Under the pieces are notes generated by a model. The model saw only the letters and a program-made list of their open reading frames with translations. It ran no database searches and was not told the origin of the DNA. From Alphaproteobacteria bacterium (GTDB lineage: Bacteria > Pseudomonadota > Alphaproteobacteria > JANQMY01), in the NCBI GenBank assembly GCA_028289425.1, contig JANQPL010000017.1, positions 248,001 to 312,000 on the forward strand: DNA of 64,000 nucleotides, in the 5' to 3' direction. Each line of letters begins with the position of its first letter. The stretch's first letter is position 1. A program made the translations under genes and the position numbers. Below are positions 1,573 through 19,520 of the stretch, one piece after another.

Positions 1573-2403
1573 ATGGTATTGTCCGTCAACACAAACGTCT
1601 CAGCGGCGATTGCACTCCAGAACTTGGAAGCAACCAACCGCTCATTGGAAACCACTCAAAACCGGATCAGCACTGGCCTTCGCATCGCAAGCGCAAAGGA
1701 CAACGCGGCCGTTTACGCAATCGCACAGAACGAACGCGCCGATGTCGGTGCGTTGGATGCGATCAAACAGAGCGTTCAGCGGGCCATCAGTGTCACGGAC
1801 ATTGCGCTCGCGGCCGGCGAAACGGTGTCCGACCTTCTGGTGCAATTGAAAGAGACGGCAGTGGCGGCAAACGACCCATCATTAGACACGTTTTCCCGTC
1901 AAGCATTGAACGAAGACTTCCAGGCGCTGCTGCGGCAAATTCAGACCTCGGTCGATAACGCCACGTTCGACGGTGCCAATTTGATCAACAATTCGCTCAC
2001 CAATGGTCTGGCGGTCCTTGCGGATGCCGAGGCAACGAATACCATCACGGTCAACAGTGAGAACCTTTCTACCGGCGGCCCGCTTCTGACGTTGTCTGTC
2101 ACGTCGAGTGTCCTCACATTGACGCAGGCAGCGACGTCTCTGTCTCAATTGAACACCAGTTTGGCGAATGTGAACTCTGCCCTGGCGCGATTGGGCAGTT
2201 CGGGTAAAGCTCTTGAAACGCATCTCGTCTTTGTTGGAAAACTACAGGATACGCTGGTCGGCGGTATCGGCAATCTGGTGGATGCGGACCTTGCGGCCGA
2301 AAGTGCCAACCTACAAGCGCTGCAGGTCAAGCAGCAGCTGGGTGCACAAGCGCTGTCGATTGCGAACCAGTCGCCGCAAATCGTGCTGTCACTGTTCCGA
2401 TAA
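1573..2403 (+). CDS. Flagellin
   Basis: A complete 276-residue filament subunit. The N-terminal D0/D1 helix shows the usual pattern (SVNTNVSAAIALQNL, then RISTGLRIASAKDNAAVYAI), and the C-terminus ends in QIVLSLFR. The central region is serine/threonine-rich with almost no D2/D3 domain, which suits O-glycosylation of surface-exposed D1 residues. The start is supported by GGAGAG eight bases upstream and by a sigma-54 promoter at 1492-1507. A strong terminator follows. The adjacent glycosylation locus and FlmG-like transferase suggest this protein and the first flagellin are glycosylated. It differs from the first flagellin mainly in the middle and is a paralogue rather than a recent duplicate. 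Confidence 0.97.
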   Translation: MVLSVNTNVSAAIALQNLEATNRSLETTQNRISTGLRIASAKDNAAVYAIAQNERADVGALDAIKQSVQRAISVTDIALAAGETVSDLLVQLKETAVAANDPSLDTFSRQALNEDFQALLRQIQTSVDNATFDGANLINNSLTNGLAVLADAEATNTITVNSENLSTGGPLLTLSVTSSVLTLTQAATSLSQLNTSLANVNSALARLGSSGKALETHLVFVGKLQDTLVGGIGNLVDADLAAESANLQALQVKQQLGAQALSIANQSPQIVLSLFR

Positions 2404-2454: not shown

Positions 2455-4853
<2,399 letters not shown>

Positions 4854-4944: not shown

Positions 4945-6909
4945 TTAGCCCGACAAGGTAAAGGACAGCTCGGGACCGAAAATGGTGTGCTGTCCCGGCC
5001 GGCGCGTTTCGTCGAATTCAAGCGCGGTCAGTGACAAACGGCAGAATGCTGTGTCGCCTACGGGCTTATGTGTGACCAGGCCCGCCACTGTGGCCTTGCT
5101 GTGGTCGGCGGAAATACGCACACGCTGATCCTGATCACCGATATCGATCCATTCTTCCGTCATGCCGACGGCGCAATTGGCCGACACTTGAAGCGAAATG
5201 GGGGCGCCATGGTCGACCGTCCGGCCCTTGAGCGCGAATTCTTCATATTCGATTCCGCCATTGTGGGTGCGGTATGTCAGTTCGTCTTCATTGAACGCTT
5301 CCGGGTTGAGGGTAATCCCGCCGATCCGCAGGCAAGCCGGCCGGTCAATCTGCCAACCAAAGGATGTGTCAAAGCGAATACTGCGCATCGAATTGGACAC
5401 GGTGATAACTTTCCGTATGGGGCCCAACCGGGTCTCGATATAGGCGGAAAGCTGCACATCGCCTGTGTTTGGGTCGATCTCAACTTCCGGCTCGACTTTC
5501 TCCAAATCGGTGACTTTGGGTTCGCCGGGCACTTCGAACACACTCAACCCGCTATACCAGTCCGCGCCCAGCCGAATGTCATCGAAATAGCCATGAGGAA
5601 GGGTCCGGCACACCGGTGGTCGGTTGTGCGTTTCGTCGCCACCGAACCAAAGGTTTTCGATAGCAAGGCCCCGCCGCTTGTTGAATTCCACCCGAACGCC
5701 TTGAGTGGTGATGCGCACGCTCCGTTCGTCCTCTGAAATGACCGGCACGAAATCAGACGGCGTGTCCGGGGCCTGGTCCAATGACGGAGTGCTGGATACG
5801 GCACCTGTGTGCCGCGTCAAACGATTTTGAAAGTCGCTCCAACGTTTTGGCGTGATGTGGGTTCTAAAATCGCTGCTCCACAGATAGCACAGCTCTCGCC
5901 AGTCGGTTTCCGTCGCGGCGCGATCTGCTTTTAGCTGCTTGTAGATGCGCCAGCACGCGGCGTTGATCCTTGAATCGTCGCGTCCCGTCACAGCCCAGCG
6001 GGTGATGTTGTATTTTTGCTGCTTCTTCACCGGTACCGGGTATTCGGGCGTTTCAAGCTGCAGGGGCTCGTCGGCCGTGTCATCGAAATCGCGGGCCAAG
6101 ACTTCACGCGGCAATTCAAAGACGATGTGGCTATTCTTCTTCAGTTCTCCGATGGCCTGGCGCAGTCTTGACCATTCGCTTTCCTCGCTAAGGACGGCCT
6201 CCGTTGCAAGACGCCCCGGACGAAAATCGAAAATCTCCACATCGTTGCCGTAAAGCGCCAAGCAGCGGTCGTGCTCGCCGATCTGTGAACTGACATATGC
6301 CAAATAGTCCGATAGCGGCAAGTCGTTATGGGCAAGCCGTTGCAGTTTTTGAAAGGCGATCGTATTGGTCCAAAGAAGTTTGATGGTCGACCCATCAACG
6401 CCCATGGCACGTTGTGGGGCGAACCGATGGGTCTTCGGCCATTCCGCGTGGAACGATGCCACATTGTCGTAGTCCATGATGATGGCGTCGTAACCACTTT
6501 CCAAATAGATCGGCACAATGCCGCAAGAATAAGCCTGCTCGTTGACCAGCGCCGTAGCGGGCCTCATGCCCAGAAGCCGATCATAGACTTCGTGACCAAA
6601 CCGCAAGTTGGCGCGCGAAATGTCCGCGGGCACAAGGGGGCCGATAAGTTGGCTGTACCCGGATCCAATAAGTTCGACCTTTTCGGTATCGATTAATCGG
6701 CGCAGTTCATCGATCCACCTCGGATCAATCCGATGAATTTCTTCAAGCGTGTATCCGGATGCTTCAAGGCCGATCGGCAAGTCCAGATCCGCTGCCAGCT
6801 TGAGCAGCGGCCAATAGCATTTTTCGACCAGTTGTGGCCGCCTGTCTTCCTCCACCGAAGAAAAGCTGATGTTCAGATGGAATACGCAATAGCAGTACAA
6901 AGTGCTCAT
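4945..6909 (-). CDS. GH57-like protein in flagellin glycan locus
   Basis: A 654-residue protein with the outline of a GH57/GH38-superfamily (beta/alpha)7 barrel: FHLNISFS near the N-terminus, LEASGYTLEEI near residue 48, VELIGSGYSQLIGPLVP near 80, and ALVNEQAYS near 120, where the family's catalytic glutamate sits. A candidate acidic residue follows in MDYDNVA. The C-terminal 250 residues look beta-rich, as in the C-terminal domains of GH57 amylases. GH57 enzymes act on alpha-glucans, and a role in nonulosonic acid or flagellin glycan synthesis is not established. The gene sits four bases after the ATP-grasp gene, so it is probably in the same operon. The substrate is unknown. Confidence 0.6.
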   Translation of the reverse strand: MSTLYCYCVFHLNISFSSVEEDRRPQLVEKCYWPLLKLAADLDLPIGLEASGYTLEEIHRIDPRWIDELRRLIDTEKVELIGSGYSQLIGPLVPADISRANLRFGHEVYDRLLGMRPATALVNEQAYSCGIVPIYLESGYDAIIMDYDNVASFHAEWPKTHRFAPQRAMGVDGSTIKLLWTNTIAFQKLQRLAHNDLPLSDYLAYVSSQIGEHDRCLALYGNDVEIFDFRPGRLATEAVLSEESEWSRLRQAIGELKKNSHIVFELPREVLARDFDDTADEPLQLETPEYPVPVKKQQKYNITRWAVTGRDDSRINAACWRIYKQLKADRAATETDWRELCYLWSSDFRTHITPKRWSDFQNRLTRHTGAVSSTPSLDQAPDTPSDFVPVISEDERSVRITTQGVRVEFNKRRGLAIENLWFGGDETHNRPPVCRTLPHGYFDDIRLGADWYSGLSVFEVPGEPKVTDLEKVEPEVEIDPNTGDVQLSAYIETRLGPIRKVITVSNSMRSIRFDTSFGWQIDRPACLRIGGITLNPEAFNEDELTYRTHNGGIEYEEFALKGRTVDHGAPISLQVSANCAVGMTEEWIDIGDQDQRVRISADHSKATVAGLVTHKPVGDTAFCRLSLTALEFDETRRPGQHTIFGPELSFTLSG

Positions 6910-6913
6910 AGGA

Positions 6914-8194
6914 CTACACAGGTGCTGTCAATGTGTTGGATGAAATGTCCGGTTGCGGAGCGCGGTAGGACCGAGCATCCATGTCAAAATCGATTGTATC
7001 AATTGCACGCTGGGCGTTATGGGCGGCCTGCGCGCCGTCATCGCCGGTGGCAATCACCATGGCCACCCGGGATGTGGTGTTTTCGGTCGCCCTCACCGTG
7101 TCCCCCACACAAGCCGACACCATGAGTTCAAGAACCCCGGGCATTTGCCGCGCGGCATCCACATTCCGTATGCCGATGATGCGGCCAGAGTCTACGAATT
7201 TGTAGCGCTGCGCGATCGGTTTCAGAAACTTTGGTTTCAGGTCGTCCGGGTTAATTGGTTCGCCCAATGCCAGATTGATCACGTTACCGACGAAATCGAC
7301 TCCGGTATTGAGCGGAATTTCGAGTGTGCAGAAATAGCCGCCACTCAAACGCGCGGCCAGTTCGATAACGTAAGGCTGACCCTTGTGTAGAACAATGTCA
7401 CCCTTCACATTGCCATTACGAATGCTCAGGCTGGCGGCGGCTTGTGCGACTACTTCGCAGATCGCATCTTGTTCGTCCGCTGCAAGATGGCTTGGCAGGC
7501 TGCCGCCATTTTCAATGAAGTAGGGGGCGAACCGCTCCAGATACTCATAATTCCGATCTGAAAACCCGGGCGTGTACGCAACGCCGTCGAGGACAATCGA
7601 CTCCGTTGAGATCTGCGGCCCATCCAGATATTCTTCGACCATCACACGGTCGGTGGGCGACTCTGTCTGCGCTTTTCGAAAAGCAGATTCAAGATCGGTT
7701 CGGGCGTTGATGCGTTGAACGCCGCGGCTGCCGCGGCTGTCTGCCGGCTTGATGACGAGGGTTTCCTTGTGTTGGCAGACGATCTTTTTCAAGTCGTGCA
7801 CATCCGCCACCGGTTGAAACCACGGGGCAGGCACGCCGTCCTTCGAGAACTGGTTCTTCATGGCCAGCTTGTCTGCGGCCAACATTGCCGAATGTTCCGA
7901 AATACCGGGCAGATCAAGTGCCTTCGCGACGGCGGCCACAGTGCGGGGCACGTCGGCCCCAAGGCACATCACACCGTCAATCTTGCGCACATTGGCGTTG
8001 TAATGCAGGGCGGCATCAACGGTCTGTTCCACATCGTAGGTAGACGCGATTAGGGCATCGTCCGCCACTTTGAAACCCGGCGCGTCCGGGTTCATGTCGG
8101 AAACGACCACATGAAGGCCGCGCGCCTTGGCGAGTTCAATGCCGTGGACGGCTTCGATCCCGCCACAAACGATCAGCAAGGTCTTGCTGGGCAT
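6914..8194 (-). CDS. ATP-grasp carboxylate-amine ligase
   Basis: A 426-residue ATP-grasp enzyme. Such enzymes activate a carboxylate as acyl phosphate and couple it to an amine or thiol. The N-terminal Rossmann-like pre-ATP-grasp domain begins LLIVCGGIEAVHGIELAKA. Nucleotide-binding segments are VIKPADSRGSRGVQRI near residue 147 and VMVEEYLDGPQIS near 184. The metal-binding segment is PYVIELAARLSGG near 275. The ATG overlaps the SDR stop codon (TGATG), so the two are translated together. In this locus it could attach an acyl or amino-acid group to the 4-amino sugar, a step normally done by an acetyltransferase such as PseH, which is not seen here. That role is inferred from context only. Confidence 0.75.
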   Translation of the reverse strand: MPSKTLLIVCGGIEAVHGIELAKARGLHVVVSDMNPDAPGFKVADDALIASTYDVEQTVDAALHYNANVRKIDGVMCLGADVPRTVAAVAKALDLPGISEHSAMLAADKLAMKNQFSKDGVPAPWFQPVADVHDLKKIVCQHKETLVIKPADSRGSRGVQRINARTDLESAFRKAQTESPTDRVMVEEYLDGPQISTESIVLDGVAYTPGFSDRNYEYLERFAPYFIENGGSLPSHLAADEQDAICEVVAQAAASLSIRNGNVKGDIVLHKGQPYVIELAARLSGGYFCTLEIPLNTGVDFVGNVINLALGEPINPDDLKPKFLKPIAQRYKFVDSGRIIGIRNVDAARQMPGVLELMVSACVGDTVRATENTTSRVAMVIATGDDGAQAAHNAQRAIDTIDFDMDARSYRAPQPDISSNTLTAPV

Positions 8195-8949
8195 CAGAAA
8201 TAGAGCCCCCCATTCACGTTGATCGTTTGCGCGGTGATGTAGCTGGATTGATCGCTTGCAAGGAAGATCGCGGCGTCGGCCACCTCATTTGGGCTACCCA
8301 TGCGCTTAAGGACAATGTTTTCAGCGGCCTGGGCAACAACGCCGGATTGCATCCCCGCCGCCGCCATTTCAGAGTCGATAAGCCCCGCAGCGATTGTATT
8401 GCAGCGAATGCCGTCGCTCGCGCCGAACCGGGCGATCACCTGTGACAGAGATATGAGGCCTGCCTTGCTGGCGGCATAATGCGCTGTGCGGGGGCCGCCA
8501 TATTGTCCGCTGACGGATCCAATGTTGATGATCGATGCGTTGTCCGAGCGTTTCAAATAGGGCAGCGCTTCTTGGGAACAGATGAAGGGTCCCTTGAGGT
8601 TGACGTCGAGTATGGAGTCCCAATCGTCATCGCTGATCTCGTCGAAATCCGTTGGCTTGTTGATACCGGCATTGTTGACCAACACGTCCAATCCATCGAG
8701 CGTCTTGTTGGCGGTTACGATGGCTTCACGAATTGACTCGCGGTTGGGAATGCTCATTTCGACTGCGGCTGAAGTTCGGCCGAGCGCCGTGATATCTTCC
8801 GCCGCAATCGATGCCATGTCGGATTTGGTATTGTACGTCACGACCACATCGGCGCCCGCTTCGGCCATGCGCAACGCAATCGCCCTGCCTATGCCGCGGC
8901 TACCGCCGGTGACGAGAACTTTTCGGTTTGCGAGAACCGCCATTGTCAT
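8194..8949 (-). CDS. SDR oxidoreductase, FabG/PtmA-like
   Basis: A classical short-chain dehydrogenase of 251 residues. The NAD(P)-binding motif TGGSRGIG is near residue 14, NNAG near 91, and the catalytic serine, tyrosine and lysine lie in IGSVSGQYGG and HYAASKAG. PtmA-type SDRs occur in Campylobacter flagellin-modification loci, but the fold is too general to give a substrate. The gene lies eight bases after the transketolase C-terminal gene and overlaps the ATP-grasp gene. AGGAAG precedes two possible ATGs (8949 and 8943). It probably oxidises or reduces an intermediate of the same pathway. Confidence 0.85.
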   Translation of the reverse strand: MTMAVLANRKVLVTGGSRGIGRAIALRMAEAGADVVVTYNTKSDMASIAAEDITALGRTSAAVEMSIPNRESIREAIVTANKTLDGLDVLVNNAGINKPTDFDEISDDDWDSILDVNLKGPFICSQEALPYLKRSDNASIINIGSVSGQYGGPRTAHYAASKAGLISLSQVIARFGASDGIRCNTIAAGLIDSEMAAAGMQSGVVAQAAENIVLKRMGSPNEVADAAIFLASDQSSYITAQTINVNGGLYF

Positions 8950-8957
8950 TGTTCTTC

Positions 8958-9953
8958 CTATTGTTGGTTTCTGCGGGCTATAGCGCGTTTCGCAGCCGCT
9001 GCAATGTAAGGGCCGGTCAATCCATAATAATCGGCAAGCTCATCCGGTTCTCCGGATTCACCGAAGCGGTCCTGCACGCCGATAAATTCGATTGGGCAGG
9101 GGGCGGATTGAGCCAGCGCCTCCGCGACGGCGGACCCCAATCCGCCATAAATGTTGTGGTCTTCGCATGTCACAAAACAGCCGGTTTCCAGGGCCGCTGT
9201 TTGAAGTGCTGCGCGATCGATCGGCTTAACTGTCGCCATGTTGAGGACGCGGGCGGAGATGCCATCCTGTTCCAGAGTGTTTGCGGCGTCGCACGCGCGC
9301 GCCACTTCCACGCCGCAGGCGACAATGGTGACGTCTCGCCCATCGCGCAGCATGGTGGCTTTGCCAATCTCGAATTGGTGTGTATCGGGCAAGATACGCT
9401 CTGCAGGACTGCGGCCGGTGCGCATGTAAACGGGGCCCGAATGCTTGATCACAGCCTCCGTTGCCAATTGCATTTCAAACGGATCGGCCGGCGATATGAC
9501 GGTCATGCCGGGTATTGCCCGAAACGCCGCAATATCTTCAAGGCATTGTGCAGAACCGCCATCCGGTCCCACATCGAGGCCCGGGTGGCTCGCGACAATC
9601 TTGACGTTGCGGTTCGAGTACGCGATTGACAACCGAGCCTGTTCGACGGCCCGCAAACAGAAGACGGCAAAGGTGGTCACAAAGGGAGTCAGTCCGGTTG
9701 CGGCCATTCCGCCGGCAACAGACATCATGTTCTGCTCTGCAATGCCGAATTGAAAGAAACGATCGGGATGGCTCTTGCGAAAGTGGTGAACGCCCGTGCC
9801 GCCGGCGATGTCGGCATCCAGCACCACGACGTCTTTGTACTGATCGGCAAGGCCGGACAGCGCCTTGCCGAAGGCTTCCCGCAGAGAGTCCCCGGAACTG
9901 CCGATCAGCTGCGGTGCCGTTTCAACTTTGAGTGCATTAGTTGACGATGCCAT
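8958..9953 (-). CDS. Transketolase, C-terminal subunit
   Basis: The pyrimidine-binding and C-terminal domains of a split transketolase. DIAGGTGVHHF, then FQFGIAEQNMMSVAGGMA contains the conserved catalytic glutamate (IAEQN) that activates the thiamine diphosphate aminopyrimidine. The start chosen is the ATG at 9953 (MASSTNALKV), which overlaps the end of the N-terminal subunit gene by 17 bases and has CAGGATTGG upstream. A frame extension to 10019 exists but would bury most of its N-terminus in the other gene. Together with the next gene it should form an enzyme that moves a two-carbon unit between a ketose and an aldehyde. Its place in this locus suggests a dedicated donor or acceptor. Confidence 0.9.
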   Translation of the reverse strand: MASSTNALKVETAPQLIGSSGDSLREAFGKALSGLADQYKDVVVLDADIAGGTGVHHFRKSHPDRFFQFGIAEQNMMSVAGGMAATGLTPFVTTFAVFCLRAVEQARLSIAYSNRNVKIVASHPGLDVGPDGGSAQCLEDIAAFRAIPGMTVISPADPFEMQLATEAVIKHSGPVYMRTGRSPAERILPDTHQFEIGKATMLRDGRDVTIVACGVEVARACDAANTLEQDGISARVLNMATVKPIDRAALQTAALETGCFVTCEDHNIYGGLGSAVAEALAQSAPCPIEFIGVQDRFGESGEPDELADYYGLTGPYIAAAAKRAIARRNQQ

Positions 9954-10851
9954 CGATCCAATCCTGAGCTGTTGCGTTATCAAGAGAGAGGTCCTGCAGG
10001 GCGCGGGAGATATCGTCATTCGACAGTTTCACACTGCCGTGCCAAGGGGCACTGTCTTCCATGTAGGAAACGCCTTTCCCCTTAATAGTATGGGCAATGA
10101 TGACTGTCGGCAGACCATCCGTGTTGCGGGCCGCATCCAACGCGTTCTTGATGGCGTCGAAATCGTGGCCGTCAATTTCGATGGCGTTCCAGCCGAATGC
10201 GCGCCACCGCACCGCCAAGGGTTCCAGCGCCATGATATTGGCGTTTCGGTCGTCGCTTTGAAGCTTGTTGTAGTCGACAATGGCGCACAAGTTCGAAAGT
10301 CCGTGATGGCTTGCCGACATGGCTGCCTCCCAAACTTGACCCTCTTGCAGTTCGCCATCCCCCAAAAGTGCATAGACGCGCGACCCTAGGCCCTGATGAC
10401 GGGCGCCCAGCGCCATGCCAATGGCTGCCGAAAACCCCTGGCCCAGTGAACCCGTGCTGGTTTCGGCGAACGGCATGTCGACCACATGGGGGTGTCCTTG
10501 CAACGGACTTCCCAGTTTCCTCAGTGTGGGGATGCTTTGGAGAGATATAAGGCCCAGTGCGGCCCATGTTGCGTAAAGGGCCGGGCAGGCATGTCCCTTC
10601 GACAAGACAAATCGGTCGCGCGCATCATTGTCGGTGTCCGACTTGGTCAGCGATATTTCCCAGCCATACAGTGTCGCTAAGATGTCCACTGCGGATAGTG
10701 ACCCGCCGGGATGTCCGGAACCCGCGTGATAGATGGACGTAACCGTCAGCTGGCGAATGCGGCCGGCAAGTTCGTCTAATTTTGCATCGCCGCGACCAGG
10801 TCGCTCTGTAGGCTCACGGTGAAGCGTTTCAGCGACGTTTCGGTGATCCAT
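9937..10851 (-). CDS. Transketolase, N-terminal subunit
   Basis: The thiamine diphosphate-binding half of a split transketolase, 304 residues. Signature segments are YHAGSGHPGGSLSAVDIL near residue 40, the invariant H in KGHACPALY near 88, and the GDG motif LLGDGELQEGQVWEA near 150 followed by VDYNKLQSDD. Split transketolases occur in secondary metabolism and sugar loci. The ATG at 10851 overlaps the end of the dehydrogenase gene by 76 bases, and I see no good later start before the conserved region. The overlap therefore appears real and couples the two genes. Confidence 0.9.
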   Translation of the reverse strand: MDHRNVAETLHREPTERPGRGDAKLDELAGRIRQLTVTSIYHAGSGHPGGSLSAVDILATLYGWEISLTKSDTDNDARDRFVLSKGHACPALYATWAALGLISLQSIPTLRKLGSPLQGHPHVVDMPFAETSTGSLGQGFSAAIGMALGARHQGLGSRVYALLGDGELQEGQVWEAAMSASHHGLSNLCAIVDYNKLQSDDRNANIMALEPLAVRWRAFGWNAIEIDGHDFDAIKNALDAARNTDGLPTVIIAHTIKGKGVSYMEDSAPWHGSVKLSNDDISRALQDLSLDNATAQDWIDGIVN

Positions 10852-11963
10852 TGGATGTCCTTATCTTTGAGGTCGATCGGATTTTCTTTCGCAAGAACCG
10901 TGTCTCGCGCGATCGTGTTCAACAATTCATCGGTGCAGATGGAGCTGGTCGCGATCAGGTCTTGAATGTCCGCCATCAGATTGAATTGTTCGAACACGTC
11001 GTTCCAGAACCCGCACAGTGTTTCAATCGTGACCGGTCCGAACTCCGGCATCACAGATTGAGTCACAATATCCAGTTGGGTAACGCGGTCCTGCACCTCT
11101 GAGGCATAGGATCGAAGCACGACGGGAAAGAATACAAAGAGAGAGGCGGGATGCGCAATTTTCAGCTGCGACGACAAGGCTTCGCCCAGTGTGTGGACCA
11201 TTCCGGTGCGAACATTCGATATGGCAACACCGCCAGATGATGACGCTTGCTGCAGCGCCAAAATATCTTCCAGGGTCAGATTGTCATTTTGCAGTTTGTG
11301 GATCGCCCGCAAGATCTGTGGCAATCCACTAAGGCAGTATGCATCGGTGAAAGGCGACCGTTCGTTGCGGCATACGAAGGTCTCCCACAGGTGGACGAAG
11401 GCATCGAATGCGCCAAGTGCGATTGTCGAGGCGGGCGAATTGGCGAGGAAATATGGGTCCAGAACCGCAAGTTCCGGCACATTCGCCCAGGATCGAATGG
11501 AGACTTTCTTACCGTTGTCTTTGTCGCTCATGATGAAGAAGCGGCTTGTTTCGGATCCCGATCCTGCCGTCGTGGGCGCGGCAATAAGATGGGGCGCGCC
11601 GACCGCCGCGCTTTCATCGCGAATGCGCAATTTGCCAAATCTCAGATAGGCGGCGATGGCTTTTGCCGTATCGATCGTGCTGCCACCACCCACGGCAATG
11701 ACCCAGGCCGTGTCTTTGGGCATTTCGACAATTGTTGACAGCAGCGTCGTTTCGTTGGGTTCTTCCGCCACCGTGATGCGGCGGACCGGATTGATGTCGT
11801 CCAACAGCGGATCGGCCGCAAAAAGCGAATCGGTGACAACGACAGCAGGGCCCTGCCCGCGTATGAGTTCCGGAATTTTGTTCCGTGTACCCGCGCCGGA
11901 CAGAATACGCCCAGGGTAATAGAACCCCATTTCGTTTTGGGTGTTGAAAGTGTTTTCTAACAT
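10776..11963 (-). CDS. Iron-type alcohol dehydrogenase family protein
   Basis: A 395-residue group III (iron-activated) alcohol dehydrogenase/glycerol dehydrogenase-like enzyme. The dinucleotide-binding motif is GGGSTIDTAKAIA near residue 92. TTAGSGSETS lies near 132. The metal ligands are the conserved Asp and His in GAFDAFVH and the two His in MVHTLGEAL and IAHPASLF. These enzymes interconvert alcohols and aldehydes or ketones with NAD(P). Placed before the transketolase genes and overlapping the first of them, it probably makes or consumes the aldehyde that the transketolase uses. The substrate is unknown. Confidence 0.85.
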   Translation of the reverse strand: MLENTFNTQNEMGFYYPGRILSGAGTRNKIPELIRGQGPAVVVTDSLFAADPLLDDINPVRRITVAEEPNETTLLSTIVEMPKDTAWVIAVGGGSTIDTAKAIAAYLRFGKLRIRDESAAVGAPHLIAAPTTAGSGSETSRFFIMSDKDNGKKVSIRSWANVPELAVLDPYFLANSPASTIALGAFDAFVHLWETFVCRNERSPFTDAYCLSGLPQILRAIHKLQNDNLTLEDILALQQASSSGGVAISNVRTGMVHTLGEALSSQLKIAHPASLFVFFPVVLRSYASEVQDRVTQLDIVTQSVMPEFGPVTIETLCGFWNDVFEQFNLMADIQDLIATSSICTDELLNTIARDTVLAKENPIDLKDKDIQWITETSLKRFTVSLQSDLVAAMQN

Positions 11964-11982
11964 GATGAACTCAAATCTCGAC

Positions 11983-13110
11983 CTATCGTGCGGTACAAAA
12001 AAACTCGCATTCGTAAGGGGCGGCAGGGTGGTGACCCACGTAGAATCTGTAGGCAGGTTCTAAGGTGGCGATGAGCTGAGGCAGCTCCCAAAGATGCTCA
12101 GCTTTGTGATAGCCGGCGATGGCCAGGTCCGGGCGATCGCGATTGAGCACCGCTCTTGCCCCTTTGAGCGCTTCGGGCTCAAACCCTTCAATATCGATCT
12201 TCACGTAATCGATCTTGTTTTCAGAGCCATTTACAATCGCGTCGATACTCTCGATGGTGATTTCTTCCGTCTGCGTATTGTTTTTACACAGCGCGACGGT
12301 TGCGCGGGGGTCTTCCTCATTCGGCGCAATGTCGATTGTCATCGTCGCTCGAAGCTCACCGACGCCAACCTTAAGTGGGGTGACCTTTCGATCAAGGCCG
12401 TTTGCGTCGACCCAGCGGGAAAGTGCATCGTAATTTGTTGTGACCGGTTCGATGGCGATGATCTCGCAGTCCTGATCGAGGCGTTCTAAGAACGATCGCG
12501 CGGTATCGCCGTTGAACGCACCACAATCGATAATCCGATCTCCCTTGAAGGGGCCGATCCCTCCAGATCCGTTCGCACCGGTCGGTTGATAGTCATAGAA
12601 CCCTGCAAGGCAGGGATTCCGCCTGAGCGCGCGCGGATCCATCGTCCAGCGGAACTTGATCAGGTTGGCGATGTAATCCCGAGACTCTCGGTCCGCGACC
12701 GCCGACATGAGAAGCTCGATATCGGCTGCATGAGTCTCCACCATGGCCGCGCCGAAATGCTTGTGGAACATTTCCGACACAAACGGAAAAACGGCCGCTG
12801 GATCGATGCGCAACTGGCTAATCAATTGTTCGGCGATTTCCACTTGATAAGCGCTGGAAATAATGACGGCGCAGTCGGGGTCCATTATCGACGGCAGGGA
12901 AGCAGGGTCGAATATAGTTCGGCCACGGAATAGGGTGCCGTGTTTTTCGGGGGCGTTATCCAAAAAGCCGATGACGTCTTTGTCCCGCGCCGCAAGGAAG
13001 GCCTCCACTTCTACAGCGCCGGCGGAAGCTCCGAACAAATAGAACTTCTGAAAACGGAGGAGGTCAGCAACACTGCGCTGCGGTCCGAATGTGGTGTAAT
13101 CGATGGTCAT
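11983..13110 (-). CDS. FkbM-family methyltransferase
   Basis: A 375-residue protein. Residues 20-60 resemble a Rossmann/PglD-type N-terminal domain (YLFGASAGAVEVEAFLA, then DVIGFLDN). The C-terminal half is an FkbM methyltransferase domain: RIIDCGAFNGDTA for S-adenosylmethionine binding, IAIEPV, then DYVKIDIEGFEPEALKGA. FkbM enzymes typically O-methylate sugars or polyketides. It is three bases upstream of the next gene in the run and 19 bases before the dehydrogenase gene. It suggests that the final glycan or its acyl group carries an O-methyl group. Confidence 0.85.
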   Translation of the reverse strand: MTIDYTTFGPQRSVADLLRFQKFYLFGASAGAVEVEAFLAARDKDVIGFLDNAPEKHGTLFRGRTIFDPASLPSIMDPDCAVIISSAYQVEIAEQLISQLRIDPAAVFPFVSEMFHKHFGAAMVETHAADIELLMSAVADRESRDYIANLIKFRWTMDPRALRRNPCLAGFYDYQPTGANGSGGIGPFKGDRIIDCGAFNGDTARSFLERLDQDCEIIAIEPVTTNYDALSRWVDANGLDRKVTPLKVGVGELRATMTIDIAPNEEDPRATVALCKNNTQTEEITIESIDAIVNGSENKIDYVKIDIEGFEPEALKGARAVLNRDRPDLAIAGYHKAEHLWELPQLIATLEPAYRFYVGHHPAAPYECEFFCTAR

Positions 13111-13113
13111 GTG

Positions 13114-14049
13114 TCAGGCTTTCTGAGCAATCACGATCGCTTCTCGGCCAAGACCCAGTTTTGCGAACACTTCGTAGAGCTCGCGCCGCAAGTTTCCTTG
13201 GCCGGCCCGCTGAAGCAGCAATTCAAACTGTTTGCGTTTGTTGTGGCAGGAGCGTCCCAGCGCGTCGTCGCCCACATAGTTGTCCCCCATCAACAAAAAG
13301 AGCTCCATGGGGAAACTGGTGGTTTGAGATAGAACGCGAAATCCGGCAGCGGTCAACAAACGGTTCAACGAGTCAAAAGTGAAATAGTTGAGGTGATGGG
13401 ACGGCACAATCCACCACGGGTCGAAACCGCCTTTGTCCCGTAGGGCTTCCTGCAGCGGATTGTAGTCGTTAGGCACGCCGATGCAGATCAATCCGTTCTC
13501 AGACAGATGAGTAGATGCCTTTTCAACCAATTCGCGTGGGTTAGGAACGTGTTCGAGCATATTGTTCATATGCACCACGTCGAACGTGCCAAGATCACCA
13601 ACATTTTCCGAGCCGAAAAAGGCTTGGGTGACCGGCAGTCCCATCTCACGCGTATGCGCCGCTGCTTGGATGGATGGGTCAATGCCATGCACTCGCCATC
13701 CGCAATCGGCCGCAAACTTCAAGAAAAGGCCCGGGCCGGAGCCGATATCGAGCAGCGACCGCTGACCGACACTCAGATGGGCCGTGAGCATGTCTAGCCG
13801 GTCGCGATAATTCAGCGTCGCCCATTCGTAGTCTTCGCCTGCATGAATGAGGTAGGCGGGTTTCTCGTCCCTATAATATTCGGTGGCGTAAGTCTCGATG
13901 AGCGAGTCGACCGTCGGCAGCGGAACCACATGGCGAAAACCGCAGCGTACACATTCGATAATTTCCTGACCGGAGACGACATCAACGACGGCACCGGAAT
14001 GGCCGCACCACTCCGTAAGCGGATCATTGAGGTTGGTTTCGGTGGTCAT
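13114..14049 (-). CDS. Class I SAM-dependent methyltransferase
   Basis: A 311-residue Methyltransf_23/11-type enzyme. Motif I is LLDIGSGPGLFLKFA near residue 98, and the later VVHMNNMLEHVPNP is typical of this group. The N-terminus carries a CGH-x16-CVRCGF pattern that may be a small metal site, as in some sugar C-methyltransferases. It is the first gene of the minus-strand glycosylation run; GGTGAGAG precedes its ATG. The gap to the divergent NeuB-like gene carries an inverted repeat (14081-14118). The substrate is unknown. Confidence 0.8.
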   Translation of the reverse strand: MTTETNLNDPLTEWCGHSGAVVDVVSGQEIIECVRCGFRHVVPLPTVDSLIETYATEYYRDEKPAYLIHAGEDYEWATLNYRDRLDMLTAHLSVGQRSLLDIGSGPGLFLKFAADCGWRVHGIDPSIQAAAHTREMGLPVTQAFFGSENVGDLGTFDVVHMNNMLEHVPNPRELVEKASTHLSENGLICIGVPNDYNPLQEALRDKGGFDPWWIVPSHHLNYFTFDSLNRLLTAAGFRVLSQTTSFPMELFLLMGDNYVGDDALGRSCHNKRKQFELLLQRAGQGNLRRELYEVFAKLGLGREAIVIAQKA

Positions 14050-14118: not shown

Positions 14119-14160
14119 GTTGAGCCAACCGATTAAACGCTTGAAAAGAGGTTGGGCCAC

Positions 14161-15027
14161 ATGACCCCTGTTCGGTTCATTGCCGAAGTAAGCAGCAATC
14201 ACGCACAAGACTTGGGCCGGTGTTTGGAATTTGTCGATGCCGCAGCGGACTGTGGCTGTCACGCCGTCAAGTTTCAGTTGTTTAAGATTTCGGAAATGTT
14301 TGCGCCTGAGATCCTTAACAAAAGTGCAAAGCATCGCGCGCGCGAAGCGTGGGAGTTGCCGGAAGCATTCCTTCCTCACATTGCCGAGCGGTGCACAAAA
14401 CGGGGCGTTCAGTTTTCATGCACACCATTTTCGTTGGGCGCGGTCGACGCCCTTGAACCGTTCGTCGACTTTTACAAGATCGCATCATACGAACTTCTGT
14501 GGACGGATTTACTGTCGGCGGTTGCCGATACCGGAAAGCCGGTGATCCTGTCGACCGGCATGGCAACACTTGACGAAATCGCCCATGCAGCCGACGTGCT
14601 GAGAGAAGCGGGGGCAAGTGATATTACGTTGCTCCATTGCGTCTCGGCCTATCCGACCCCGGTCAATGAAGCGAATTTGTCGGCGATCAAAACCATTGCG
14701 GACAAGACCGGCTGTCCCGTCGGCTGGTCGGACCACACGGTATCTCCCGGCGTGATACACCGCGCCATTCATCGTTGGCATGCGCCGGTCATCGAGTTTC
14801 ATTTGGACTTGGATGCTGCCGGTGCAGAATATGAAGCGGGCCATTGTTGGCTTCCCCAAGAAATCGGCATGGTGATTGCCGACGTGAAGGATGCCTTTCA
14901 AGCGGACGGGGCAGGCGAAAAGGGGCCAACAAAGAGCGAGCTGGAAGATCGGGAATGGCGCGCGGATCCGAATGACGGGTTGCGCCCGCTCAAGCATGTG
15001 CGATCGTCGTGGAAGGTGGCCTCTTAA
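14161..15027 (+). CDS. NeuB/PseI-like nonulosonic acid synthase, no SAF domain
   Basis: An N-acetylneuraminate synthase family (NeuB/PseI/LegI) enzyme of 288 residues that would condense phosphoenolpyruvate with an amino sugar to form a nine-carbon acid. TIM-barrel motifs: FIAEVSSNHAQDL at the start, AVKFQLFK (PEP-binding lysine) near 37, IASYELLW near 106, STGMATLDE near 128, and WSDHTVSPG near 190. The metal-binding His is in EFHLDLDAAG. The start used is the ATG at 14161 with AAGAGG upstream; a TTG nine bases earlier is less likely. The family is usually about 340 residues with a C-terminal SAF (antifreeze-like) domain, and here the protein ends after the barrel. The stop overlaps the next ATG. 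Confidence 0.85.
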   Translation: MTPVRFIAEVSSNHAQDLGRCLEFVDAAADCGCHAVKFQLFKISEMFAPEILNKSAKHRAREAWELPEAFLPHIAERCTKRGVQFSCTPFSLGAVDALEPFVDFYKIASYELLWTDLLSAVADTGKPVILSTGMATLDEIAHAADVLREAGASDITLLHCVSAYPTPVNEANLSAIKTIADKTGCPVGWSDHTVSPGVIHRAIHRWHAPVIEFHLDLDAAGAEYEAGHCWLPQEIGMVIADVKDAFQADGAGEKGPTKSELEDREWRADPNDGLRPLKHVRSSWKVAS

Positions 15028-16802
15028 TGACGACAGGCACACTTGCGATCGTTCAGGCACGCATGGGATCCGCACGCCTGCCCGGCAAAGTGCTGCGCTC
15101 CATCCACGGCCGGCCGCTCTTGTGGCACATTCTCCATCGGTTGAGAAAGTGCAAACGCATCGACACGATCGTTGTCGCCACCTCCACGGAAGCTCAAGAC
15201 GATGACATCGAAACGTTCTGCCGCCAGGCGGATATGCCGGTTGTGCGCGGCTCGGAAAAGAACGTCTTGGCGCGCTTCAATCTGGCGGTTCAAAAGTTTG
15301 ATCCTTCGCTGATCGTGCGCGTGAATGCCGATGCGCCGCTTGTCGATCCGGTGTTCATCGACACGCTTATCCGCACCGTCAAAAAACAGGATGCGGATAT
15401 TGCGTTCGGGCCGCCGGGGGTGCCGTGCCTTCATGGCGGCGTTGATCCCATCAGCCGTCGGGCATTCGATCGCTTGGTCACCAAAGCCGGTGATGATCCT
15501 GTTGCCCAGGAGCACGTCACTGGTTACCTCAAGAAACATCCGGGTTTCGGCAAAATAGCGCGTATCGATATCGAACCGGCGCTCCAGTTCGAGGATGCGA
15601 GGCTTTCTATCGACACACAAGCAGACATCGATTTCATCGAGATGCTGTACACGCTGTCGAACGCGGAGGTGGGAGAGCTCAATATTCGTGATGTTTCCGC
15701 GCTGCTGCGGATGCAGCCGGAACTTCGCAAGATCAACGCCCATGTCCAACAAAAATCCCTCGATCATCGCGGCGGCACGGTGGTAATGCGATGCGACGGC
15801 GGGCACGATATCGGCTTTGGGCATGTCACACGATCGCTCGCAGTAGCGCGGGTGCTGCGGGACGCTCACGGGTTTGGCGTCGTCTTCGCCATGGCAGCCG
15901 ATACTGCAGCCAATGCGCGGGTCTCCACTGAAGGGTTTGAAGTAGAGACCTGGCCCGGCCACCGCGACGAAGAAGTGTGGCTTGAGGAAGTGCTGGCAAA
16001 ACATACGCCGGTCGCGGTTGTCTACGACATTCGAACCGGTTTAAGTTCTTCCGCTGTTCGACGCTTAAAGCCGCCGCAGCAGCTTACGGTCATGTTGGAC
16101 GATGGCAGCCCCCGCCGGCTGGAAGCCGACATCGTCGCCTATCCGCCGGTGCAGCAAGTGTACGATTTGGACTGGATCGGTTTTCGCGGCACCAAACTCA
16201 TTGGCTGGGAATGGGTCATCCTGCCGAATGCGATGAGGGAACGTTCAACCGCGAAACAATTCGAAAGCCGCAGGTTGCTGATTTCCATGGGCGGATCGGA
16301 TCCGCTCAACCTTACATGGGATGTGGCATGCCGCCTCAAGGCGTCGGAAGCGGAAATCGATCCGATCTTTGTCATTGGTCCTGGTTTTGCGAAGCCGGAC
16401 CTACTGTACAAGCGCTTGCTCAGCCTGTTTCCTGACGCGCGGATTGCCGTCAAGCCGTCATCGCTCGCTGATCTCTTCGAGCAGTCGGACCTTGCCATCA
16501 CCATGTATGGCGTTACGGCTCAAGAGCTGGCCGCCGCAGGCGTTCCCGCGTTCTATTTGTGTCTCGATGAAGATCATTGCTTCTCTGCCCGGTCTTTGGC
16601 GGAACGGGGTGTCGGTATTTCACTCGGGCTTGCTGACGAAGTGGATTGGTCGTCTGTCATGGCCAAAATAGAGCGATTGCTGATCGATGGCGACGAGCTT
16701 GCCCTGATGGCGAAGCGCGGGCCGCGGCTCATCGATTGTCAGGGGGCGGAACGGTTGGCCGCTTTGATATCCGAAAAGATTGGCGCGCGGGCTGTCGCGT
16801 GA
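15027..16802 (+). CDS. Fused CMP-sugar cytidylyltransferase and PseG-like UDP-sugar hydrolase
   Basis: A 591-residue fusion. Residues 1-225 are a SpsF/PseF-type cytidylyltransferase (AIVQARMGSARLPGKVL, then RVNADAPLVDP with the metal-binding aspartates). Residues 250-590 are a PseG/SpsG-type GT-B domain (RCDGGHDIGFGHVTRSLAVA, then LISMGGSDPLN and SDLAITMYGVTAQELAA). In pseudaminic acid synthesis PseG removes UDP before, and PseF activates the acid with CMP after, the synthase step. The fusion therefore brackets the adjacent NeuB-like gene functionally. The ATG at 15027 lies in TAATG with the synthase stop and has GGAAGG upstream; a GTG at 15009 is also in frame but lacks a good ribosome site. 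Confidence 0.85.
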   Translation: MTTGTLAIVQARMGSARLPGKVLRSIHGRPLLWHILHRLRKCKRIDTIVVATSTEAQDDDIETFCRQADMPVVRGSEKNVLARFNLAVQKFDPSLIVRVNADAPLVDPVFIDTLIRTVKKQDADIAFGPPGVPCLHGGVDPISRRAFDRLVTKAGDDPVAQEHVTGYLKKHPGFGKIARIDIEPALQFEDARLSIDTQADIDFIEMLYTLSNAEVGELNIRDVSALLRMQPELRKINAHVQQKSLDHRGGTVVMRCDGGHDIGFGHVTRSLAVARVLRDAHGFGVVFAMAADTAANARVSTEGFEVETWPGHRDEEVWLEEVLAKHTPVAVVYDIRTGLSSSAVRRLKPPQQLTVMLDDGSPRRLEADIVAYPPVQQVYDLDWIGFRGTKLIGWEWVILPNAMRERSTAKQFESRRLLISMGGSDPLNLTWDVACRLKASEAEIDPIFVIGPGFAKPDLLYKRLLSLFPDARIAVKPSSLADLFEQSDLAITMYGVTAQELAAAGVPAFYLCLDEDHCFSARSLAERGVGISLGLADEVDWSSVMAKIERLLIDGDELALMAKRGPRLIDCQGAERLAALISEKIGARAVA

Positions 16803-16806
16803 CAAG

Positions 16807-18381
16807 TCAGAGCTTTTCGAGCGCTTCCCGTGTCCGGTCAAACGCGCTGCGCCAGTCGCCGGCTTCGACACCGCGCATGAGTCGGCACGCAGGTGCGAGC
16901 GGCTCATAGTCTTTTCCAAAGGCAGTCCAACTTCGATCGCGAAGGATCTTGAAGGTCGGGATGCCGAGACTAGCGGATAGGGCCGCGACGGCTGTTGGTG
17001 CGGTGATCACCGCATCCAGGCCTGCTATGAGGGCAGCCGTACCGTCAATGTCGGCTTTTTGATCTAAAGCCGTTGGCTGATGAATCTTACGGCCGCTTTG
17101 GTGTTCCAGCGCCGTAATTTCATCATCGCGCGCATCATATTGCAGATTGATGATCTCCACACTCGAACGCGCTAGAGAATCTGTCCACTGCTCAATGCCA
17201 GCGAATTGATGGGCCCGTGCGCCGGTCATGTCACCGCTGCGCCAGCAAATGCCGATTTTCCTCTGTGTACCGACCGTCTGCAGCCATTGCCGCCATCTGC
17301 CGGTCTCTGATGGGTCAGCCCGAAGATAGTGATGTGGATTGGGCATCGCGTCGAGATCTTGTCGGTAGTGCTTCCCCAGACTGCCCATGGGGATACTGTG
17401 TTTGAGGTTTTCGATGTCGCCAAGCCAGTCGTAGCCCACGATGTGCCGGCCCTCTTCAAATTTGGCACACATGGGATAAACCGCCGCCGATGGGAAAGAA
17501 CGGTCGAACAGGGCGACCAGTCGGGGCTCACATTCAATGATAATTATGCCGTTGTTCGCTTCGGCGGCGGCGAGCAAGTCGGGGAAGCAGGACGCGAAGA
17601 TTATTTGGTCCCCGATACCTTGTTCTGCGGTGACAAGCAGGGAGCAGTTGCGCAAGTGATTGCCGTCCCAGCGGCGCAGGCCGTGCGTATAATCGACCTG
17701 TTTTGGCGTCGCCGAAAAACGATACTCAAAATCGCGCCAGCCTTCGCGTAATTGGCCGATGGAAAGGTTCAGGAGCCCCCGGTGGTAGCGAACCCGATCT
17801 TGTTTGGGATCTTTTTTGAGCGACTTGGTGTAGGCGTCCAGCGCGCCTCCCGTATCACCTTTGTCCGACAGAAGATCGCCCAACGCGCCAAGGGCCAGGG
17901 CGTAACCGGGCTTTTGCGAAAGCGCTGCACGGATGAATGTTTCGGCGTTTTCCAGATCGCCAGTCTCGCGGGTCACATTACCCAAGGCAAGCCACAGGGG
18001 TGCCGGTCTTTCGCAGATCTTGATCTTGTCGCTCAAAAGCGTTTGCGCGTCCGCGTACCGCTTGTCTTCCGCGTAGGTTTCCGCCAGGGGCACAACGGCT
18101 TCGATCCGCTTCGGATCGATCGCCAAGGCCCGGCTGTAGAATTCTTGCGCCATCGACCGCTGCTGAAGCCGCCGCGCCGCATCGCCCAATTGCTGAAGAA
18201 TGTTGGCCTCACGCTGCGCCGTGCCGGCCGATCGCAGAGCGTCTTCAAAACAATCGATCGCCGCGCGCAAGGACCCCGATTTTGCAAGGGCGAGGCCGCG
18301 GCGGAAGGGGTCGGCTGCGGCAGGCCCACTGCCGCGGGCGCGTCTTTGGCTAAGGCCAATCGCCTTTTGGGTTCGAGACAT
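16807..18381 (-). CDS. FlmG-like TPR flagellin glycosyltransferase
   Basis: A 524-residue protein. The N-terminal 230 residues are TPR repeats (for example AREFYSRALAIDPKRIEA-like units and LGALGDLLSDKGDTGGALDA). The C-terminal half is a GT-B glycosyltransferase-like domain (LLVTAEQGIGDQIIFASCFP, GICWRSGDMTGARAHQF, LDAVITAPTAVAALSASLG). The same TPR-plus-transferase layout is known for FlmG of Caulobacter, which binds flagellins and attaches pseudaminic acid. Its place between the sugar genes and the flagellar cluster supports this role. It is convergent with the PseFG-like gene (four bases apart). The basic N-terminal tail of about 25 residues is probably disordered. Confidence 0.78.
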   Translation of the reverse strand: MSRTQKAIGLSQRRARGSGPAAADPFRRGLALAKSGSLRAAIDCFEDALRSAGTAQREANILQQLGDAARRLQQRSMAQEFYSRALAIDPKRIEAVVPLAETYAEDKRYADAQTLLSDKIKICERPAPLWLALGNVTRETGDLENAETFIRAALSQKPGYALALGALGDLLSDKGDTGGALDAYTKSLKKDPKQDRVRYHRGLLNLSIGQLREGWRDFEYRFSATPKQVDYTHGLRRWDGNHLRNCSLLVTAEQGIGDQIIFASCFPDLLAAAEANNGIIIIECEPRLVALFDRSFPSAAVYPMCAKFEEGRHIVGYDWLGDIENLKHSIPMGSLGKHYRQDLDAMPNPHHYLRADPSETGRWRQWLQTVGTQRKIGICWRSGDMTGARAHQFAGIEQWTDSLARSSVEIINLQYDARDDEITALEHQSGRKIHQPTALDQKADIDGTAALIAGLDAVITAPTAVAALSASLGIPTFKILRDRSWTAFGKDYEPLAPACRLMRGVEAGDWRSAFDRTREALEKL

Positions 18382-18450: not shown

Positions 18451-19287
18451 CTATCGCTTGCCTTTTCGCCAGTCATCCCAGCGCGCAAACATGATGTAGA
18501 GCGCCGCAATCAGAATAATGGCCCCGATCGCAATCATGATTTCGGTCTGGTAGGCCTCCAGATAGTCTTTGATCGTGCGCCCGATCGTTGTGGGCTGTTC
18601 CGTGTTCATCGTGGTGCCGGCACCGACGGCGCTGGCGCCCGCGGCGCCCGCAACACCGGCCCCCTGCATGGTGCGGCTGCGGCTCAAGCGCTCCCGCCGG
18701 GCGCGGGAACTTTCCTCCGGCGTGACGCGGGATTGTAAACCCTGATCCTCAGGCGTGGCGGCCGGTGCCGAACTGGGCGGCGCCTCGGCAACGCCTCTGT
18801 TGTCATCCGTTGCAGCGGAGACAACTTCCGCAACCAAATCTTGAAGCGTCGGGGTGAGGAAAAGCGCTTTTTCCGCGGCCCGACGGCGCACCAAACCGGG
18901 CAGCGTGGTTAAGACCCCGTTAACCCGGCCCTTGTTCCACCATTCGATGGCGTCGGCCGCGCCCACTTTGTCGCCCGCATTCAGACGTTTGAGGACGGTT
19001 GAGCGCTGGAAATTGCCCGAACCGATGTTAAAGACGAGGGACGCCAAGGCAGAAAATTCGTTTTCATTGAGATCGACCTTGACCAATCGGGTGACCGCCG
19101 CTTCGGCTTCGCCTAGATCCTGCCGCAGCAATTGCTCGGCTTGTTCCTCGGTGATAACCATGCCGCGCCTGGCGGTTTTGGTATGGCCGTAGCCGATTGT
19201 CCAAACGCCTACCGCGTCCACATAGGCTTCCAAACGAAGCCCCTCAAACATTTTTATAAGGTCGAGGCCTGCTTGGTTGGTCCTCAT
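18451..19287 (-). CDS. GH24 lysozyme-like protein with C-terminal membrane anchor
   Basis: A 278-residue protein. The first 145 residues are a phage-type (GH24) lysozyme that cleaves peptidoglycan, with the E-8-D-5-T triad visible in MFEGLRLEAYVDAVG and VWTIGYGHT. A proline/serine/alanine-rich linker follows, then one membrane segment near the end (IAIGAIILIAALYIMFA) and a basic tail. There is no signal peptide, so topology is uncertain, and a tail anchor would need export of the N-terminus. The start is ATG at 19287; GTG at 19290 is also possible. Between glycosylation and flagellar genes, it could be a rod-penetration hydrolase, because the FlgJ/CheL protein here lacks one. A prophage relic is the alternative, but no other phage genes are near. 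Confidence 0.72.
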   Translation of the reverse strand: MRTNQAGLDLIKMFEGLRLEAYVDAVGVWTIGYGHTKTARRGMVITEEQAEQLLRQDLGEAEAAVTRLVKVDLNENEFSALASLVFNIGSGNFQRSTVLKRLNAGDKVGAADAIEWWNKGRVNGVLTTLPGLVRRRAAEKALFLTPTLQDLVAEVVSAATDDNRGVAEAPPSSAPAATPEDQGLQSRVTPEESSRARRERLSRSRTMQGAGVAGAAGASAVGAGTTMNTEQPTTIGRTIKDYLEAYQTEIMIAIGAIILIAALYIMFARWDDWRKGKR

Positions 19288-19448
19288 CACGCCACTCTCA
19301 CTTCACTGTGCTCGTTACGACGCCGGATAGTATACATTCATTAACTCTCATTTGATGAAGCAAAACCGCTTGATGCAAGTCGCGCCCTAGCGGCCGGTCA
19401 TTTTGTGTGGCATGAACGCGACAATTATGTGATGACGCGCTCGACTTC

Positions 19449-19463: not shown

Positions 19464-19520
19464 TGCCTTCCTTCTACAATCTAACCATCTGATTTTGTTG
19501 TGCTTTCGGTTGCGTTGCGT

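Follow-up and report, generated by a model that had tools for sequence, protein, structure and literature searches.

Flagellin nonulosonates with acyl chains and the locus in the window

The glycan on FlaB of Treponema denticola is reportedly (Kurniyati 2017) a nonulosonate of the mono-acetyl pseudaminic acid (Pse) type with a 2-methoxy-4,5,6-trihydroxyhexanoyl chain on N7. The glycan carried by FlaB has a mass of 450.2 Da and is needed for the filament (PMC9481697). In Shewanella oneidensis MR-1, the sfmABCDE operon comprises genes for a synthase of 290 residues, an IlvB-type thiamine diphosphate (ThDP) enzyme, a short-chain dehydrogenase/reductase (SDR), a methyltransferase and an ATP-grasp protein; motility is lost in the sfmA-D mutants, and the flagellin mass is shifted in every one of the five sfm mutants (PMC3765264). 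The flagellin glycan of this organism consists of mono-acetyl Pse plus C9H16O7, C10H18O7 or C11H20O7, which is nitrogen-free and methylatable (PMC3765264). In this study, a 64,000-nucleotide stretch of an alphaproteobacterial genome (GCA_028289425.1, contig JANQPL010000017.1, positions 248,001 to 312,000; the window) was analyzed, in which a cassette of acyl-building and ligase genes lies within a Pse-type locus. We think it rather probable that this locus makes a Pse-like flagellin sugar, the N-acetyl group that PseH would add being replaced by a hydroxy-acyl group that is made locally and attached by a ligase. The cassette is best read as an sfm-like system that uses a transketolase, and would thus belong to a known type. 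The initial suggestion of a possibly undescribed pathway is not supported in full, since sfmABCDE is the same kind of system and comes with mutant and mass data (PMC3765264).

The sfm-type gene set, i.e. synthase, ThDP carboligase, SDR, methyltransferase and ATP-grasp protein, is found together in the window, the two systems being likened by description. The window synthase is short (291 residues) and lacks the SAF domain; it matches the reported 290 residues of SfmA, with which it was compared by length alone. On the other hand, the sfm ThDP enzyme belongs to the IlvB (acetolactate synthase) class, whereas the window has a split transketolase, and no iron-type alcohol dehydrogenase (Fe-ADH), FkbM or GH57 protein is reported for sfm. 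PseF and PseG are not beside that operon. S. oneidensis shares the lack of a clear PseH, and it has PseB and PseC elsewhere in its genome. The T. denticola FlaB glycan, in its reported structure, is the kind of product that the cassette would make. The sum 274.116 + 176.069 = 450.185 agrees with that glycan, and the Shewanella increment of 236 Da exceeds the Treponema chain by C2H4O2, which equals one reduced ketol unit; both coincidences are suggestive only.

The canonical route runs through PseB-C-H-G-I-F. PseB and PseC score over their curated cut-offs in the window and PseG-, PseI- and PseF-like steps are present, but these three fall under the cut-offs, the synthase has no SAF domain, PseH is missing, and acyl-building and ligase genes are added. 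Of the initial annotation as a PseB/PseC/PseI/PseFG-type locus, the PseB and PseC part therefore stood, whereas PseI, PseF and PseG were not confirmed at that level. The genes are as follows.

1573..2403, plus strand: flagellin gene beside the cassette (open reading frame)
2455..3702, minus strand: PseC, UDP-4-amino-4,6-dideoxy-AltNAc transaminase (TIGR03588, 424.8 bits, cut-off 423.5)
3690..4802, minus strand: PseB, UDP-GlcNAc 4,6-dehydratase (5-inverting) (TIGR03589, 522 bits, cut-off 408)
4945..6909, minus strand: GH57-like glycosidase/transglycosidase, cassette member (PF03065)
6914..8194, minus strand: ATP-grasp carboxylate-amine ligase, proposed PseH replacement (LAL_C2 and ATP-grasp)
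8194..8949, minus strand: SDR ketoreductase, FabG-like (PF13561)
8958..10019, minus strand: split transketolase, C-terminal subunit (PF02779/PF02780; true start probably near 9953)
9937..10851, minus strand: split transketolase, N-terminal ThDP-binding subunit (PF00456)
10776..11963, minus strand: iron-type alcohol dehydrogenase, optional module (PF00465/PF25137)
11983..13110, minus strand: FkbM-family methyltransferase, optional module (PF05050; TIGR01444 over cut-off)
13114..14049, minus strand: class I S-adenosylmethionine methyltransferase, Methyltransf_23 (PF13489)
14152..15027, plus strand: PseI/NeuB-family synthase without SAF domain (PF03102 only, 291 residues)
15009..16802, plus strand: CMP-transferase fused to a PseG-like UDP-sugar hydrolase (PF02348; TIGR03590, 96 bits, below cut-off)
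16807..18381, minus strand: TPR protein of FlmG type, probable flagellin glycosyltransferase (TPR repeats; family name by analogy)

The two methyltransferases, the iron-type dehydrogenase, the split transketolase, the SDR and the ATP-grasp ligase named in the initial annotation are all present and intact, with the family matches as stated. Their genes (6914-14049) form a minus-strand run in which neighbours overlap or nearly touch. Downstream on the same strand follow the GH57-like gene (4945-6909), a near-constant part of the cassette that had been missed, and then PseB and PseC. The synthase and the CMP-transferase/PseG fusion are divergent from the run and are followed by the FlmG-type TPR gene; the flagellins lie at the left. 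FlmG itself is a protein with TPR and GT-B parts (PMC7591256).

Distribution of the cassette and its carbon-joining slot

A search for the same gene set beside pseB/pseC in other genomes, as had been proposed, was made by scanning an ATP-grasp alignment over 84,980 species. It gave 43 loci, about 35 of which hold the cassette. The cassette is thus a widespread conserved set, previously uncharted, carried by Alphaproteobacteria, Desulfovibrionales, Myxococcota, Krumholzibacteriota and other metagenome-assembled genomes, although some phylum assignments of such genomes may be binning errors. The recurrent order in Alphaproteobacteria is methyltransferase, then either FkbM and Fe-ADH or another methyltransferase, transketolase N, transketolase C, SDR, ATP-grasp, GH57, PseB and PseC, with the synthase, CMP-transferase and PseG-like genes near the run; outside this class the order is rearranged. 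Among 38 scored loci, the ATP-grasp gene occurs in all 38 (by selection), SDR in 37, GH57 in 34 and Methyltransf_23 in 26; flagellin genes adjoin 18 and TPR/FlmG-like genes 14. Fe-ADH and FkbM are found in only 6-7 of the 38, together in 6, and FkbM always with Fe-ADH. The iron dehydrogenase, formerly placed as a required step, was accordingly rejected as part of the core, being absent from most cassettes.

In a class sample of 240 genomes, PseB was present in 7/8 genomes with the ATP-grasp gene versus 50/232 others (p=0.0002), and a phylum sample of 398 genomes added a few more cassettes, some of them in complete genomes. An ATP-grasp gene on a Brachyspira plasmid was rejected as a cassette because it sits in a rhamnose cluster. 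The cassette of Solidesulfovibrio carbinolicus (L007:7523-20332) lies on plasmid pDCAR1 and has no Fe-ADH; the cassette can therefore move between replicons. The same plasmid also has a second split transketolase pair.

The main evidence that one slot of the cassette builds a carbon chain comes from the enzymes that occupy it: although they belong to different families, all make C-C bonds. In place of the transketolase, the slot holds an acetolactate-synthase-type (ALS) enzyme at four loci (L035, L037-L039), a DXS-type enzyme at two (L043, L141) and a fructose-6-phosphate-aldolase-type (FSA) enzyme at one (L023). This supports the formation of a hydroxy-acid via carboligation, keto reduction and O-methylation, and it agrees with the role of chain builder given earlier to the transketolase. 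In a complete alphaproteobacterial genome (L142:9503-13950), a second NeuB-like synthase of the phosphoenolpyruvate (PEP)-aldol type, a phosphonopyruvate-decarboxylase-like fragment and a PsrA-like Fe-ADH replace transketolase and SDR.

The window transketolase is nearest to the split enzyme of C. hydrogenoformans, and its two subunits have intact ThDP and catalytic residues. The ThDP/substrate His residues of the N subunit are invariant in 27/27 copies. In the C subunit, the catalytic Glu and three phosphate ligands are kept, and the fourth (Ser) is Gly in 30/30 aligned cassette copies, so that the standard phosphate site (Arg, Ser, His, Arg) is incomplete; the assignment of these residues follows human transketolase. 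The Gly at the position of the donor-phosphate Ser suggests that the choice of substrate may be altered. A housekeeping role for the split enzyme was rejected, as a full-length transketolase is encoded on another contig. The source genome holds a second split transketolase (L133:6890-8694; G000:C12:75001-93000) near methyltransferase-like genes, of the same type as the other S. carbinolicus plasmid pair.

PseH avoidance and the SAF-less synthase

The initial annotation had seen no PseH in the locus, and a search of the source genome likewise gave none over the cut-off. The best match (36 bits versus a cut-off of 93.1) lies on another contig and was rejected as a general GNAT beside an M16 peptidase gene. 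The 34 genomes carrying the ligase also yielded no PseH over the cut-off. Since the NCBIfam cut-off proved too stringent for Alphaproteobacteria (1/240 genomes pass), a local PseH hidden Markov model was built from GNATs mostly beside pseB, many of them fused to PseG. PseG sequences entered the model in a second iteration, which was set aside in favour of a version restricted to the domain. With this model, a PseH-like GNAT was found at 1/22 PseB loci with the cassette and at 20/51 without it (Fisher p=0.002), duplicate genomes and L050 having been removed and the contig-split loci L078 and L100 moved to the cassette side. L050 had been dropped as a cassette because its ATP-grasp protein is only 32% identical and its synthase bears a SAF domain and groups with the PseH type. 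Apparent fusions of PseH to PseG in many Alphaproteobacteria (L066:12701-14224, L067:14044-15561, L110:16058-17602) score far below the NCBIfam cut-off for PseH, which would therefore escape annotation there. The avoidance between cassette and PseH, together with a synthase clade specific to the cassette, speaks for the earlier proposal that the ligase stands in place of PseH.

In this clade, the PseI-like proteins of the cassettes (28 rows from five phyla) are set apart from the same-class synthases of PseH loci by a long branch (quick tree; 1.72 changes per site, SH-aLRT 100). At a length of about 285-300 residues, they end after the NeuB barrel, whereas synthases of PseH loci have about 330-350 residues and a SAF tail. 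The window protein scores 183 of 340 bits against the PseI profile. Its PseG-like partner scores 96 bits against a cut-off of 154, and the PseF half, also below its cut-off, resembles KdsB more; with all three genes under the cut-offs, the late pathway is divergent. Arg314 in the SAF domain of Neisseria meningitidis NeuB positions and contacts the N-acetyl group of the substrate (PMC6795526), and for this reason the loss of the SAF cap would fit a bulkier acyl group. Median identities to the window proteins at cassette versus PseH-type loci are 37 versus 25 for PseG and 48 versus 31 for PseF, but 71 versus 60 for PseB and 46 versus 42 for PseC. PseG and PseF thus diverge far more than PseB and PseC do, which would be expected of a change introduced at a step later than PseC.

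The source genome also has a separate nonulosonate locus (L129:409-2658), in which what appears by eye to be a fusion of CBS, NeuB, SAF and isomerase-like parts is next to a cytidylyltransferase. A second TPR/FlmG-like gene (L132:4855-6672) lies across the flagellin genes from the copy at 16807-18381. Within the flagellar region of the window, beside the glycosylation genes, a phage-type lysozyme with a C-terminal membrane segment (18451-19290) and a large beta-propeller-like protein of SBBP type (19500-22223) were recognized by eye.

Proposed pathway and alternative explanations

The AlphaFold model of the ATP-grasp protein (pLDDT 93) has as its best fold match the L-amino acid ligase 3vot (TM 0.81-0.88), in line with the ATP-grasp ligase named in the initial annotation. 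The fold is consistent with activation of a free acid as acyl phosphate and formation of an amide. With the L-amino acid ligases (BL00235, BacD/YwfE) the protein shares the ATP-grasp fold, the C-terminal LAL_C2 domain and the ligation of a free carboxylate to an amine, but it is only about 20% identical to them and it is proposed to act on a hydroxy acid together with a nucleotide-linked amino sugar. All catalytic residues checked are intact, in the transketolase as described above and in three further proteins: the SDR keeps Ser/Tyr/Lys in 44/44 relatives, the Asp/His/His/His metal ligands of the Fe-ADH are intact in 6/6, and E124 and D223 of the GH57-like protein (corresponding to the nucleophile E123 and acid/base D214 of 1k1w) are kept in 28/28 and 29/29 aligned relatives. 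The GH57-like model (pLDDT 87) has a GH57/GH38 fold, and a fold search with it gave GH57/GH38 glycosidases only, with no pointer to a role.

By their families, PseB and PseC would supply UDP-4-amino-4,6-dideoxy-AltNAc. The split transketolase may then extend a small aldehyde-acid by a two-carbon ketol unit, the resulting ketone would be reduced by the SDR, and one or two methyltransferases would O-methylate the chain. The iron dehydrogenase, an optional partner of the FkbM methyltransferase, could adjust an alcohol or aldehyde of the chain. The ATP-grasp enzyme would activate the free acid as acyl phosphate and couple it in amide linkage to the 4-amino group, the later N7 of the nonulosonate; this step is suggested by the fold, the absence of PseH and the co-evolution of the synthase. 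The divergent hydrolase, the open SAF-less synthase and the CMP-transferase would carry the bulky sugar forward, and the FlmG-type TPR glycosyltransferase would place it on flagellin.

Several points weigh against this scheme. The product for this organism is a prediction from the genes alone. The scheme presupposes an aldehyde-acid as acceptor and some source for the carboxylate, the cassette set has no dedicated aldehyde oxidase, and the nearly constant GH57-like enzyme has no place in the scheme. At one cassette locus (L033) a GNAT gene does occur, lying a few kb past the flagellins, and 31 PseB loci have neither PseH nor cassette in the stretch examined. Because so many have neither, the absence of PseH by itself says little, and the avoidance is supportive but not proof. 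Finally, the acid could be an amino acid, as L-amino acid ligases normally take these. The ATP-grasp enzyme would then attach an amino acid, or some other metabolite already at hand, to the 4-amino group, and the transketolase, SDR and methyltransferases would make a second sugar or another decoration on that glycan. The nearest solved relatives of the protein are indeed L-amino acid ligases, and Leg5GluNMe7Ac of Clostridium botulinum demonstrates that aminoacyl nonulosonates exist (PMC13317340). However, the SDR and ATP-grasp genes adjoin and overlap, a carboligase is beside them in nearly all loci, and the comparable S. oneidensis operon yields a nitrogen-free increment, which makes this explanation unlikely.

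It is quite unlikely that the hydroxy-acid chain sits elsewhere on the sugar, as O-acyl or on N5, and that N7 receives its acetyl group from an acetyltransferase that is encoded away from the locus and escaped recognition. In flagellar pathways PseH can be redundant or difficult to identify, as FlmH mutants of Caulobacter did not phenocopy other pathway mutants (PMC7591256), and the 31 PseB loci noted above would be in keeping with such an enzyme. Yet cassette and PseH are rarely at one PseB locus, the SAF-less synthase clade implies that the substrate is altered before the condensation step, and the S. oneidensis core has a single acetyl. Capsule clusters contain more distant relatives of the ATP-grasp protein, and polysaccharide genes surround one plasmid-borne cassette, from which a component of a surface polysaccharide could be proposed in place of a flagellin glycan. 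We judge this very unlikely in view of the flagellin and TPR/FlmG-like genes adjoining 18/38 and 14/38 cassettes, and of the loss of flagellin mass and motility in S. oneidensis mutants of the comparable operon.

Beyond the proposed hydroxy-acylated sugar of this locus, the cassettes may represent a family of modular pathways spread over at least five phyla, a generalization on which we are evenly divided. An exchangeable C-C ligase (transketolase, ALS-, DXS-, FSA- or PEP-aldol-type) would set the chain, a core of SDR, methyltransferase and ATP-grasp enzyme would finish and attach it in the place of PseH, and the SAF-less synthase clade would accept the sugar. If true, the family would explain the flagellin glycans of Shewanella and Treponema, whose unusual acyl chains have so far had no biosynthetic route. 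The combination of ATP-grasp, SDR, carboligase and SAF-less synthase beside pseB/pseC provides a genomic marker, and the synthase clade questions the assumption that nonulosonate synthases need a SAF domain. The swapping of one carbon-joining enzyme would offer an explanation of the diversity of flagellin sugars.

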